Origin: Arthrobacter ipis
GTDB lineage: Bacteria; Actinomycetota; Actinomycetes; Actinomycetales; Micrococcaceae
NCBI RefSeq assembly: GCF_014694315.1
Contig: NZ_JAAOXD010000003.1
Location: 588,929-652,928, forward strand
Length of the DNA: 64,000 nucleotides
Direction of reading: 5' to 3'
This document shows, piece by piece, positions 57,474-61,028 of this stretch (the stretch's first letter is position 1; each line of letters opens with the position of its first letter). The position numbers were made by a program, and so were the translations under genes. Below the pieces are notes generated by a model. The model saw only the letters and a program-made list of their open reading frames with translations. It did not search any database and was not told the origin of the DNA.

Positions 57474-60092
57474 CTACGGGCCGGCCGCCTCCTGTGTCGG
57501 TGACGCGGGCGCCGTGCTCGCAGGAGCCGTAGCCGCCGGGGCCGCATCTGTGGGGGCTGGAGACGGGACGGCGGGGACCGGCGTCGTGCCTGTTCCCGGT
57601 GCGGGAACCGCGGGGCCCGGCGTCGTTCCTGGCGACGGCGCACCTGGCGATGCTGCGCCCGGAGACTGAACGCCCGGCGCAGCCGGCTGGCCCGGCGTCG
57701 GTTCACCCGGCCGGGATCCCGAGCCCGGGTCAGACCCGCCACTGGCGCCGGGCGACGGCGACGATCCCGGCGATGGAGCGCCGGTGCCGGTCTGGGGCTT
57801 GGCGCTTGGATCGGTCCGGATGATCTCCATGAGCTGTTCCTTGTAGGCGCCCAGCCGTCCCTCGATCTCGGACAGAGGAACGCTCTGCAGGGTCCGTCCG
57901 AACTCGGCGATCTCCTGCCACAGCGCGTTGAGCCGGGCCATGCCGTCCCTGCTGAGCGGCCCATCCAGGGTGAGCACCAGCTGGCTGGCCAAGGCGTACG
58001 TCAGGCAGCGGACGCAGTTGTAGTTCGCGGCGGCGGATAGGTTCTCGGGCACCACCACGTCCGCCTGGCCCACGATCAGGACCACCTGGAATCCGACAGC
58101 CACCGCCGCGCAGTCCGTGCAACTGGCGAAGGCGTAGGCCTCGTTGCGGGTGTCCACCGGCCCGTCCTCGGCCCACACCAGCGCGAACGCGATGTCGTAA
58201 CTGACGGATCCGTCGGTCGTGTTCACGGCGAGGGCCTGGTTGCCGTCCTCCTCCGGGGCCGGGGGCTTGTCGAACGGAAAGACCCACGACGGCGGCGTGG
58301 TGTTACCGGTTGCCGTACCCAGGCTTTGGTCTGTGTCCGGGCCAGGCTGGCCCTGGCCTTGGCCCGGGTCCGTTTTGCCGGGCGCGGAAGCGGGTGCTGC
58401 GCCTTGCCTCGGCACGAGCACCATGCTGAGCTGCGGCTGCTCCCGCGTGGGCAGTTTCGTGCCGTCCGGCCAGAGTGCCACCGTCTGCCCTGTCCGGCCC
58501 TCGTGAAGGGCTCCGTCGGGACCACCAAGGGCCGGATAGACGGCGGCCGTGGCATCGGCGAGCGTCCCGCGTTCGTAGGGCTGCACCGGGCGGTAGCTGT
58601 CGGGCAGCGGCCACCACGCCCACGCCAGGCCGGCGGCGACGGCGCCCACCGCCGCCAAGGCGGTCGCGCGCTGCAGCGGCCTGCCCCGGGTTTTGGTCCA
58701 GAGTCCCGTGAGGAGTTGCCGCGCCAGCCGTAGCAGCATGTACACCACGCCCACCACGGGAAGGACGACGGCGGCAATCGCCAGCGCGCGCACTGCACCG
58801 TCGGCGAAGTTTCCCTCCGCGAGGCTTCCGGACAGAAGGGCCTGCTGATGCTGCAGGCTCGCCCACGCCGTGCCAAGGAGCCGCGGGAAGGAGACGACCA
58901 TCAGCACCAGGCTGAACAGCAGCAGGGGAACGGTGACCAGGACCCAGACGGTGATAACGGCGCGGGCCCACGGCTTGAGGGCCTGGGCCTCGGGTTCAGG
59001 CTTGCTCCAGCGCCACGGCAGGAGCCCGAGCAGCGTCGGGCGGATCCGCTGGAAGAGGTCGGGCACGCCGGTGGCGTCGGCCAGGATGTGGTACCCGTCG
59101 AAGCGGACCAAGGGAAGGAGCTGGCGCACCATCTGCAGGATCTGCGTGAGCACCACCAGGAGCAGCGCATCAAAACCTGTGGCCCACCAGACACCCATGG
59201 TGGCGATCGCAACGATGGCGTTGAAGTAGAGGCCGCCCATATCCGTGCGCAGCCTGCCGCCACGCCCCAGCCGGTAGGAGTCGGTGACGTCCGTGTAGAA
59301 AGCTGGCCAGACGAGGTACAGCCCGGCACCCATCGCGCCGGGAGTGGCTCCGCCGCGGCGTGCTGCAGCGGCATGGCCGAATTCGTGAAAGCCTGCCGAC
59401 AGCACCGTGACGGCGAAAATCAGCAGGAGCAGCCACGGGTTCGCGAAGGCGTCGTGCGTGGCGGAGGCCAGGCCTTTGACCAACAGGACCCACCAGCACG
59501 ATGCCAGGAAGCCCGCGGCGACAACTGCCACGATCAGCGGATTGAACAGCACAGCGAACGGTGCCGTCAGCTTCCGGGTGCGCTCCGGGTCCGTGACGGT
59601 GTACCGGAAGCGCATGCCCAGCAAGGGATTCGATCGGCGGACCTCCGGCTGTGATCCGTCCGGCAGCTGCAGCAGGCCAAGTGGCAGCAGCTGCCCCTCG
59701 ATCAATGTCCTGACGTTGTCTCCGGTGATGAACCGGCCGGACCGCGTGCTGGCAACCTCGGCTATCCCATCAACGTCCCGGATCCCGTCGATGGCTTCGA
59801 GGACGTGAAAAAGCAACCGGGTGAGCTGGATGGTCTGGCCGTCGGCGCGGCGGACCAGCGAGGGGGCCTCCCGGTAGCCGGACCCCTTCGCCTCGCCGAT
59901 GAGCTGGATTCCTGCCGCATGCACCGGTACCTCGCCGTTTGTGTCACGGCTGATCACGACGGCGGCGCGGGTGCCGTGGCTGGGTGACTCGGCGGCCGCC
60001 GTTGGGCCTGCTGAGGGAACCGGATCGGCTGTGGGCGTAGGGGAGACCGGCGGGCCGTCCACGCCGGACGGCCCGCTGTGTTTGGCGCTCAT
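57474..60092 (-). CDS. M50-type membrane metalloprotease with PqqD-like N-terminus
   Basis: An 872-residue membrane protein. A disordered head (1-40) leads to a PqqD-like winged-helix region (58-148, LTRLLFHVLEAIDGIRDVDG). The membrane core (175-465) carries the zinc motif HEFGH at 236-240 and FDGYH at 331-335, as in peptide zinc metalloproteases of bacteriocin-type loci. The C-terminal outside part contains CTDC (658-661) and CVRC (693-696), then a Pro/Ser/Gly tail. It likely processes or exports a peptide that a PqqD-like domain recognises. Directly follows the repeat protein gene by seven bases. Confidence 0.82.
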   Translation of the reverse strand: MSAKHSGPSGVDGPPVSPTPTADPVPSAGPTAAAESPSHGTRAAVVISRDTNGEVPVHAAGIQLIGEAKGSGYREAPSLVRRADGQTIQLTRLLFHVLEAIDGIRDVDGIAEVASTRSGRFITGDNVRTLIEGQLLPLGLLQLPDGSQPEVRRSNPLLGMRFRYTVTDPERTRKLTAPFAVLFNPLIVAVVAAGFLASCWWVLLVKGLASATHDAFANPWLLLLIFAVTVLSAGFHEFGHAAAARRGGATPGAMGAGLYLVWPAFYTDVTDSYRLGRGGRLRTDMGGLYFNAIVAIATMGVWWATGFDALLLVVLTQILQMVRQLLPLVRFDGYHILADATGVPDLFQRIRPTLLGLLPWRWSKPEPEAQALKPWARAVITVWVLVTVPLLLFSLVLMVVSFPRLLGTAWASLQHQQALLSGSLAEGNFADGAVRALAIAAVVLPVVGVVYMLLRLARQLLTGLWTKTRGRPLQRATALAAVGAVAAGLAWAWWPLPDSYRPVQPYERGTLADATAAVYPALGGPDGALHEGRTGQTVALWPDGTKLPTREQPQLSMVLVPRQGAAPASAPGKTDPGQGQGQPGPDTDQSLGTATGNTTPPSWVFPFDKPPAPEEDGNQALAVNTTDGSVSYDIAFALVWAEDGPVDTRNEAYAFASCTDCAAVAVGFQVVLIVGQADVVVPENLSAAANYNCVRCLTYALASQLVLTLDGPLSRDGMARLNALWQEIAEFGRTLQSVPLSEIEGRLGAYKEQLMEIIRTDPSAKPQTGTGAPSPGSSPSPGASGGSDPGSGSRPGEPTPGQPAAPGVQSPGAASPGAPSPGTTPGPAVPAPGTGTTPVPAVPSPAPTDAAPAATAPASTAPASPTQEAAGP

Positions 60093-60099
60093 TCAGGAA

Positions 60100-60879
60100 C
60101 TAATGCTGCAGATCAGACTGCTGATCTGCCGACGCGGTGGCCTCGCCGTCAATGTCCTGCGTGATGATGGCGTCCTGCTGGGCCACGGCGAAGGCGTCGC
60201 TGTCAATCGAGCCGATGTTGGCTGCAACTGCCGCATCGATGGGCGCGGCAACGTTGGCGTTCGCGGCCACGGCGCCGTTGATCGGGGCGGCGATGTCGGC
60301 GTCGGCCGCGAGATCCACGTTGACATTGAGCAGGTCTCCGTCGAGGGCAGTGGACGGATCCACGGGAAGGGCGCCGACACTGGTGCCGTCGGGAAGCGTG
60401 CCGTCCGGGAGCGTGCCGTCGGGCAGCGTACCGCCGTCGATGAGGCCGTCCGAGGTGGTGTCGGCAGTGCCGCCGTCTACGACGCCATCCGCGGTGCTGT
60501 CCGGCGTCCCGCCGTCGACAGTCCCGCCGTCGACAATCCCGCGGTCAACATCCGACCCCTGGGTGATGGTGCTGTCCTGTACGGAGTCTGCCGTGGCATC
60601 CGCCGTGATTCCCTGGTCGATGATGACGCCCTGGTCGGCGAGGGCTTGCGACTCCGACCCGAAGGACAGGATGTTGGCCGAGGCCGCCGCGTCAATCGGG
60701 GCCGCGACGTTGGCGTTGGCCGCCACGGCAAGGTCGATCGGCGCGGCGGCGCTGATCCCCAGGTCGAGGTCTGCATTGAGGTCGAGTACGGACGCGACTT
60801 CCTTGTCCGGCAGGGCGGTGCCCGCCTGCGCATTGAGTTCGTCGTCGGAAAGCGGGGTCAATCCCTGTTCATTGCTCAC
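60100..60879 (-). CDS. repeat protein with duplicated APIDAAVAANA modules (candidate substrate)
   Basis: A 259-residue, Ala/Asp/Gly-rich, cysteine-free protein with no hydrophobic signal sequence. The head EQGLTPLSDDELNAQAGTAL (1-30) looks like a recognition leader. Two related modules follow, residues 32-99 and 183-253. Each has NVAAPIDAA(A/V)(S/A)AN(I) and a Gln/Asp segment. Between them lie VDGGT repeats and three LPDGT repeats (152-166). GTG 60879 is chosen, with GGAG six bases ahead. Its gene lies directly before the M50 gene. Unknown family; may be exported, cleaved or self-assembling. An ATG at 60951 would add unrelated residues. Confidence 0.7.
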   Translation of the reverse strand: MSNEQGLTPLSDDELNAQAGTALPDKEVASVLDLNADLDLGISAAAPIDLAVAANANVAAPIDAAASANILSFGSESQALADQGVIIDQGITADATADSVQDSTITQGSDVDRGIVDGGTVDGGTPDSTADGVVDGGTADTTSDGLIDGGTLPDGTLPDGTLPDGTSVGALPVDPSTALDGDLLNVNVDLAADADIAAPINGAVAANANVAAPIDAAVAANIGSIDSDAFAVAQQDAIITQDIDGEATASADQQSDLQH

Positions 60880-61028
60880 GCGAGGCTCCAGTTCCGGCGT
60901 CGGATTCCCCGCCCCCAGCGGACAGGTGCACCGAGCCCGTATGCCCGTCAATAGTAAGCAGGATTACTATTTTCTGGAAACACCCCAGCTTTCTGGAAAC
61001 ACCCAGCGCAGGCAGGAACCCCGAAAAC

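Follow-up and report, generated by a model that had tools for sequence, protein, structure and literature searches.

The closest described systems to the one considered here are those that mature daptides, epipeptides and TMcins. The excerpted text of the daptide report describes MpaP as an intramembrane peptidase that depends on a RiPP recognition element (RRE; RiPP, ribosomally synthesized and post-translationally modified peptide) and removes the daptide leader (PMC10036551). In the excerpted part of an epipeptide study, the M50 protease EpeP is thought to carry out both the cleavage and the export of EpeX (PMC10885120), and the excerpt of the TMcin report has TmcP (DUF3267), a protease of the site-2 clan, remove the leader at the membrane (PMC13252029). 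Here we describe two adjacent genes of Arthrobacter ipis, located in a stretch of 64,000 nucleotides (NZ_JAAOXD010000003.1, positions 588,929 to 652,928; hereafter the window), which encode a 259-residue, precursor-like repeat protein and an 872-residue protease. We consider it probable that the pair constitutes a two-gene module in which RRE-guided leader removal at the membrane is coupled to export.

Like MpaP, the window protease is predicted to combine an RRE with a site-2 protease, as MpaP is presented in the daptide excerpt (PMC10036551), and the daptide protease profile NF041824 is its nearest NCBIfam model (E 4.5e-28, residues 75–350). However, its score of 98.5 bits misses the cut-off of 300, whereas four of five weak relatives recovered with the protease core (L149, L152, L153 and L154) score 482–506 and are daptide-type. 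The fifth, an 899-residue RRE-M50-like frame (L150:5826-8522, minus strand), scores 103 bits with the daptide model and matches the window-type core at E 8e-23. The window precursor lacks the ELExMEAP leader and the C-terminal Thr given in the excerpted daptide text, having ALPDKEV and ending in His instead (PMC10036551). Among the five neighbouring genes scanned, the daptide set of oxidoreductase, decarboxylase, aminotransferase and methyltransferase did not turn up, a single methyltransferase scoring 19.3 bits against 175 for NF041820. The window system also differs in its long precursor and in an extra four-cysteine domain, and its protease lies across a long branch in a tree of protease cores. 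Judged by these comparisons, the daptide protease is a distant relative of the window protease and the nearest that we found. The same genome (G000:C10) also carries a daptide-like cluster (L186:4954-8379, plus strand), with a DELEQLEAPGFWD-bearing precursor and ABC-transporter-like genes; its 555-residue RRE-site-2-like protease groups with the daptide proteases in the core tree.

The epipeptide proteases (YydH/LiaK/EpeP; NF058609) share with the window the arrangement of an M50 protease beside a precursor, EpeP being thought, in the excerpt cited, to cleave and export (PMC10885120). By contrast, the window protease scores only 31 bits against the NF058609 cut-off of 225, its RRE is fused and there is no third conserved gene. 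The TMcin precursor, according to the excerpted report, has a transmembrane helix and is accompanied by an ABC transporter, an escort protein and a DsbA-like enzyme (PMC13252029). The window protease had no PF11667 match at E 0.1. We take an alternating S/A/Q/I pattern in the repeat protein to resemble the strand-turn-strand repeats of curli CsgA; membership in that family was rejected, as PF07012 had no match in the genome at E<=10 and no signal peptide was seen. By these tests the window system appears to be neither a daptide, an epipeptide, a TMcin nor a curli system. A role in anti-phage defence was likewise rejected, as PADLOC matched neither the repeat protein nor the protease, nor the one separate four-cysteine protein examined with it. 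In open-licence PMC papers, topical searches turned up work on daptides and TMcins and protease reviews, in which this pair is not described; searches for leader and core motifs gave chance word matches only; and none of these papers was found to describe the precursors, the pair or the four-cysteine partner. Within the literature searched, the sequence-only reading of this DNA was therefore right that the pair matches no described system.

The repeat protein, its leader and its neighbour

The repeat protein gene (60100..60879, minus strand) has a GTG start at 60879, a GGAG Shine-Dalgarno sequence six bases ahead of it and a stop ending at 60100; the protease gene (57474..60092, minus strand) begins 7 bases downstream. 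The protein contains no Cys, 18.9% Ala and 15.4% Asp, with 45 Asp and Glu residues versus two Lys and Arg, and no hydrophobic N-terminus was visible in the sequence by eye. A single head is followed by core module 1 (residues 31-107; 60559..60789, minus strand), whose first residues overlap the head and whose end has an alternating, beta-like pattern. A variable spacer rich in Gly, Thr and Asp (approximately residues 108-180; 60340..60558, minus strand) leads to core module 2 (residues 181-259; 60103..60339, minus strand), which lacks a second leader. Gap-free alignment of the modules (approximately residues 31-107 and 181-259) gave identity at 40 of 75 positions (53%) and a score of 170, compared with 47.3 +/- 6.8 and a maximum of 69 in 500 shuffles. 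Coordinates, composition and module alignment thus bear out the cysteine-free, two-module protein with a spacer that had been read directly ahead of an 872-residue protease.

In comparisons with seven Arthrobacter relatives out of 29 aligned, the modules had nonsynonymous divergence (dN) of 0.006-0.11 and synonymous divergence (dS) of 0.13-1.39, while dN of the spacer (residues 108-178) was 0.15-0.79. Because the modules accumulate many synonymous and few amino acid changes and the spacer varies, we regard the repeat protein as the product of a real gene in which the modules matter. Conserved positions alternate in residues 75-107 (p 0.0036) and 225-259 (p=0.00005), stretches that were picked after the alignment had been viewed; alternation was not seen in residues 23-74 (p 0.13) or 179-224 (p 0.55). 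The AlphaFold model, although poor, draws hairpins in the alternating stretches, and the two observations together favour a beta-rich extracellular protein, perhaps a polymer. Scans of Pfam and NCBIfam at E<=0.1 found no known domain in the repeat protein, and a search for solved structural relatives at E<=1 found none.

The head (approximately residues 1-35; 60775..60879, minus strand) had been proposed as a recognition element. Its conservation agrees with this, though the conserved part exceeds the segment originally named, EQGLTPLSDDELNAQAG, and extends through DELxxxxxTALPDKEVxSxLD, with L23, P24, K26, E27, V28 and S30 invariant in 30 aligned sequences. A helix at residues 12-19 appears only in a low-confidence model. 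A 25-residue profile, built from 12 leaders of 11 loci with the window among them, matches other precursor subtypes too. At a threshold of 8 bits, 50 of 53 held-out loci had a match on the protease strand no more than 2.5 kb upstream, and the three loci without a match all begin at contig ends. Elsewhere in the six frames of these stretches the same threshold gave three matches, an expectation of 0.006 per 2.5 kb. At 10 bits the profile matched 48 of the 53 loci, with one match elsewhere; two of the loci missed do have giant precursors. Left out of the held-out set were the ten training loci beyond the window, L055, whose contig has no protease, L113, whose contig is short, and the weak matches L149-L154. 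The members of the set are not independent, since subtypes are shared with training loci and some loci come from one genome. Beyond the class, 18 of 20 loci had a leader match of at least 7 bits, 16 of them on the protease strand and two divergent. At L168 and L170, leader-bearing peptides, in four and three copies respectively, lie opposite to the protease strand. As the heads are alike across precursors whose cores are unlike, the head fits a recognition leader, and on sequence grounds we conclude that it is a conserved one.

The pairing of the two genes is equally regular. A scan of named genomes with the protease yielded 30 loci, and in 29 of them the gene immediately upstream encodes a repeat protein homologue, with spacing from a 4-base overlap to 36 bases; the loci come from Arthrobacter, Paenarthrobacter, Mycobacterium/Mycolicibacterium, Kribbella, Terrabacter, Intrasporangium and a metagenome-assembled genome of the Nocardioidaceae. 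Frequent separation of the genes, which would have told against a partnership, was thus not what we found, the held-out loci also having a leader-bearing open reading frame just upstream of the protease in all but three cases. Judging from this distribution, the pair is old. Using a heuristic gene caller and BLAST clustering at 49 loci of the giant form to which the window belongs (see below), we recovered the protease in 48 and the precursor, by BLAST, in 42. No third family occurred in more than 15 of the 49, which indicates that neither a transporter nor a modifying enzyme is conserved beside the pair. The commonest families were an S9 peptidase (15), another family (14) and a methyltransferase (7); the first and last, whose carriers are all Arthrobacter or the window itself, were rejected as partners of the system in view of these low counts.

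Predicted fold of the protease

Two regions of the protease carry our reading of its function. Residues 52-145 (59658..59939, minus strand) are predicted to form the winged helix of three strands and three helices typical of PqqD-like/RRE domains, and residues 161-387 (58932..59612, minus strand) form a putative membrane site-2/M50 core. The HExxH motif and distal DG of such proteases are present as HEFGH (residues 236-240) and DGYH (residues 332-335), both invariant in 31 sequences, and accompany a predicted site-2 fold. The AlphaFold model has a mean confidence score (pLDDT) of 63; ten-residue means are 88-94 for residues 91-150 and 64-81 for residues 51-90. VIA was used to realign 577 chains that Foldseek had ranked from this model. 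For the RRE region it matched the TbiB1-leader complex (Z 8.4), PqqD (Z 7.7), TruD (Z 7.1) and the heterocyclase 4v1t (Z 6.9), and also methyl-/carbamoyltransferase domains (8hkr, Z 8.7; GdmN, Z 7.5). For residues 161-387 it matched the site-2 protease structure of M. jannaschii, 3b4r (Z 7.7, 147 aligned residues, 4.8 Å). In the N-terminal alignment, PF05402 was the commonest family, matching 8 of 27 members at E<=5 with a best E of 4.3e-4. The PqqD-like region noted from the letters is therefore recovered as a predicted fold resembling leader-binding RREs, with weak support at the sequence level. By predicted fold, then, the protein joins an RRE (PqqD-like) domain to a membrane protease of the site-2/M50 type.

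A search of the class with the protease core matched 63 of 394 genomes at E<=1e-20, six of them weakly; in a sample of the phylum, 25 of 396 genomes matched.

Four-cysteine domain and possible origin of the giant form

Beyond the protease core lies a C-terminal four-cysteine domain (residues 601-765; 57798..58292, minus strand), followed by a tail rich in Pro, Ser, Gly and Thr (residues 766-872; 57477..57797, minus strand), which is predicted to be disordered, with pLDDT under 50 from residue 767. The domain aligns with separate proteins encoded next to short-form proteases, and these begin, by eye, like signal peptides. Across 20 aligned rows thirteen positions never vary, and four of these are Cys. 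The domain probably lies outside the membrane; as hydropathy gives six or seven spans ahead of it, this placement rests mainly on the separate relatives. Three of the separate proteins had no match above the curated cut-off in Pfam and NCBIfam scans. Searched on its own in the 394 genomes, the domain was found in 37, all among the 63 with a protease match, a count that leans towards such forms because the domain model (A5) was built from protease-bearing loci. An extra copy was found near a contig end at L189 (G199:C138).

Fusion of this domain follows the type of precursor. Among 113 loci (L113, L055 and L155 being left out), all 51 with a giant precursor have the fused domain, and L021, scored as having none by the leader threshold despite its giant precursor, is a 52nd by eye. 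None of the 53 short-precursor proteases has it; 21 are accompanied by a separate four-cysteine protein and 32 have none in the fetched stretch, a score that may be false at the contig ends of L116, L148, L165, L167 and L175. In a quick tree of 117 protease cores the fused group of 53 rows falls on one side of a single branch (Shimodaira–Hasegawa-like approximate likelihood ratio 100); L021 and L029 were assigned to the giant group by hand and L116 was dropped. This single fused clade implies that core duplication and domain fusion coincide on the tree.

Searching the class with the repeat protein gave matches in 26 of 296 genomes. The strong matches are other long forms; the weak ones that were followed up (genomes G055, G190 and G268 excluded) turned out to be peptides some 69-82 residues long, encoded in tandem and resembling ELPDREAMSLINANLAAPVNAAVAANVLSDGSVAYANAEQ, in most cases with a protease of this kind alongside. 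Roughly half of the loci collected encode short precursors, many of them as tandem copies. The subtypes comprise the LPDKE giants, LPDRE[AQ]MSL and ELLPGREALG (often two) and, further, ELLP[TE]RETLT with PLPRRETMS, the Gly/His/Cys-rich ELLPERAVLS and AELLP[DE]R[LM]TLA. Seen in this company, and as its alignment indicates, the window protein belongs to a giant form in which a single leader precedes two cores. Two precursors, L163:2989-3555 (minus strand) and L167:5202-5642 (plus strand), have one leader, a full core and then a second, leaderless core; as intermediates between short peptides and giants, they show how the window's form can arise. In the giant precursors of L026:4595-5986 and L028:4463-5980, of 464 and 506 residues, the spacer is itself repetitive, with units like VVDSAGNVVGTLD.

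Upstream of the repeat protein gene, a palindromic block, ATAGTAATCCTGCTTACTAT, lies 72-91 bases ahead of the start (60951..60970, minus strand). Its right half, GCTTACTAT, is present in 14 of 16 aligned Micrococcaceae upstream regions.

Proposed leader removal at the membrane and its alternatives

We propose the following scheme. The repeat protein would be a precursor in which the leader of about 35 residues precedes two core modules with a flexible acidic spacer between them. The RRE domain of the protease would bind the leader on the cytosolic side, and the fused site-2-type protease would cut near the leader-core junction, at the membrane. The long acidic core could then leave the cell with the help of the protease's own four-cysteine domain, or be captured by it, and would probably become a protein rich in beta structure, located at the cell wall or beyond it. 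We infer this sequence of binding, cutting and release from the two domains shared with daptide MpaP, the conserved leader, the absence of a conserved transporter and the domain linked to the protease. The sequence-only reading had likewise taken the repeat protein as a substrate known by its head and the pair as an export or maturation system. The pairing, the shared leader and the predicted RRE fold support it in part; the leader-RRE contact, the cleavage, export with the protease, the topology, and the fate and function of the product are what we infer. That reading took in neither the short precursors that relatives carry in tandem nor the C-terminal four-cysteine domain, which relatives have as a protein of its own.

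Several observations weigh against the scheme. The Z scores of 7.7-8.4 are only modestly above those that unrelated folds can reach, and VIA warns that a Z under 8 can mean a common arrangement, although several RREs head its list for residues 52-145 despite these modest values. Whole-model Foldseek of the protease against the Protein Data Bank (PDB) gave 131 matches at E<=10 but none at E<=0.001. At E<=5 no Pfam family matches the RRE stretch of the window protease itself, a PF05402 search of its genome does not list that protease, and a PDB profile search with the RRE alignment ranks PqqD (3g2b) at E 0.46, below unrelated chains. Pfam M50 gives the protease 12.8 bits versus a cut-off of 27.2, and a hydropathy count of six or seven spans allows more than one topology. 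On the precursor side, the model of the repeat protein has a mean pLDDT of 47, and its core shows no clear membrane span (best 19-residue mean 1.29). Among the loci, L029:5953-8475 (Mycolicibacterium pyrenivorans) has a protease with the fused four-cysteine domain and an unclear N-terminus, and no precursor frame upstream; L172 has no leader match and L181 reaches only 4.4 bits. Four-cysteine proteins also occur away from any protease, at L187:6833-8104 (plus strand; G136:C4) and L188:5972-6619 (minus strand; G021:C122), with no match to the protease core or leader in 14.0 and 7.9 kb, respectively; both genomes have the protease elsewhere. Finally, deletion of epeP, as the excerpted study has it, did not completely abolish the EpeX product (PMC10885120).

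The product might alternatively be a secreted, bacteriocin-like peptide or protein rather than a structural one, the leader being removed in the same way and the cores acting on competitors. In sister lineages two or three short precursors lie in tandem and diverge in their cores, some of which are strongly hydrophobic (mean hydropathy 2.2 in the second precursor of L130 and 1.9 in L176), and relatives of the protease mature daptides and epipeptides. The hydrophobic cores speak for such a function. Against it stand the large size, high acidity and non-hydrophobic character of the window protein and the strong purifying selection acting on its modules; moreover, no third gene family, and hence no candidate transporter or immunity gene, recurs in more than 15 of the 49 giant-form loci. 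We hold this alternative to be doubtful, though it is the one that fares best. A true RiPP, whose core would be modified by an enzyme from another locus ahead of leader removal by the protease, would suit the combination of conserved leader and divergent cores. According to the excerpted sources, RRE domains occur in the majority of prokaryotic RiPP clusters (PMC7470986), and about 60% of RREs are joined to a RiPP-related protein or lie near one (PMC12710340). Given that no modifying enzyme is conserved beside the pair at the 49 giant-form loci and that the window protein lacks Cys, we find a RiPP unlikely.

If the protease part did not cut at all, the protein could serve the repeat protein as a leader-gated membrane chaperone or exporter, with the fused outer domain receiving the cargo; the absence of a conserved transporter would agree with this. 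The invariance of HExxH and the distal DG would, however, be unexpected without catalysis, which makes this reading improbable. Site-2 proteases commonly act in signalling, but regulated intramembrane proteolysis, with the precursor as a sensor or anti-regulator whose cleavage sends a signal, is very hard to reconcile with a precursor that has no known domain in Pfam or NCBIfam at E<=0.1, tandem precursors with different cores beside one protease and the RRE fold predicted in that protease.

We return to the probable coupling of leader-guided removal to export and read the window system as a form of leader-guided RRE-site-2 proteolysis whose precursors are giant and apparently unmodified and which has a dedicated extra domain. 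The pair points to an undescribed means by which proteins without a normal secretion signal are matured and probably exported. More tentatively, and with less than even confidence, we raise the possibility of an undescribed secretion route that spans the phylum. Along it, proteins free of signal peptides would carry an LPxR/LPxK leader read by an RRE-gated membrane protease that cuts them and passes the cargo out, in many lineages to a dedicated four-cysteine outer domain; one clade would have turned a route for short tandem peptides to the use of giant proteins with two cores, from which a beta-rich structure is built outside the cell. The family is common in the class, yet its precursors have no match above the curated cut-off in the Pfam and NCBIfam scans run. 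As a simple two-gene system, the pair lends itself to asking whether RRE-fused site-2 proteases also export their substrates. If the proposal is true, one leader drives two duplicated cores with no evident modifying enzyme, and RRE proteolysis guided by a leader, a process familiar in small peptide natural products, would also serve proteins of 211 to 506 residues (30 aligned rows).

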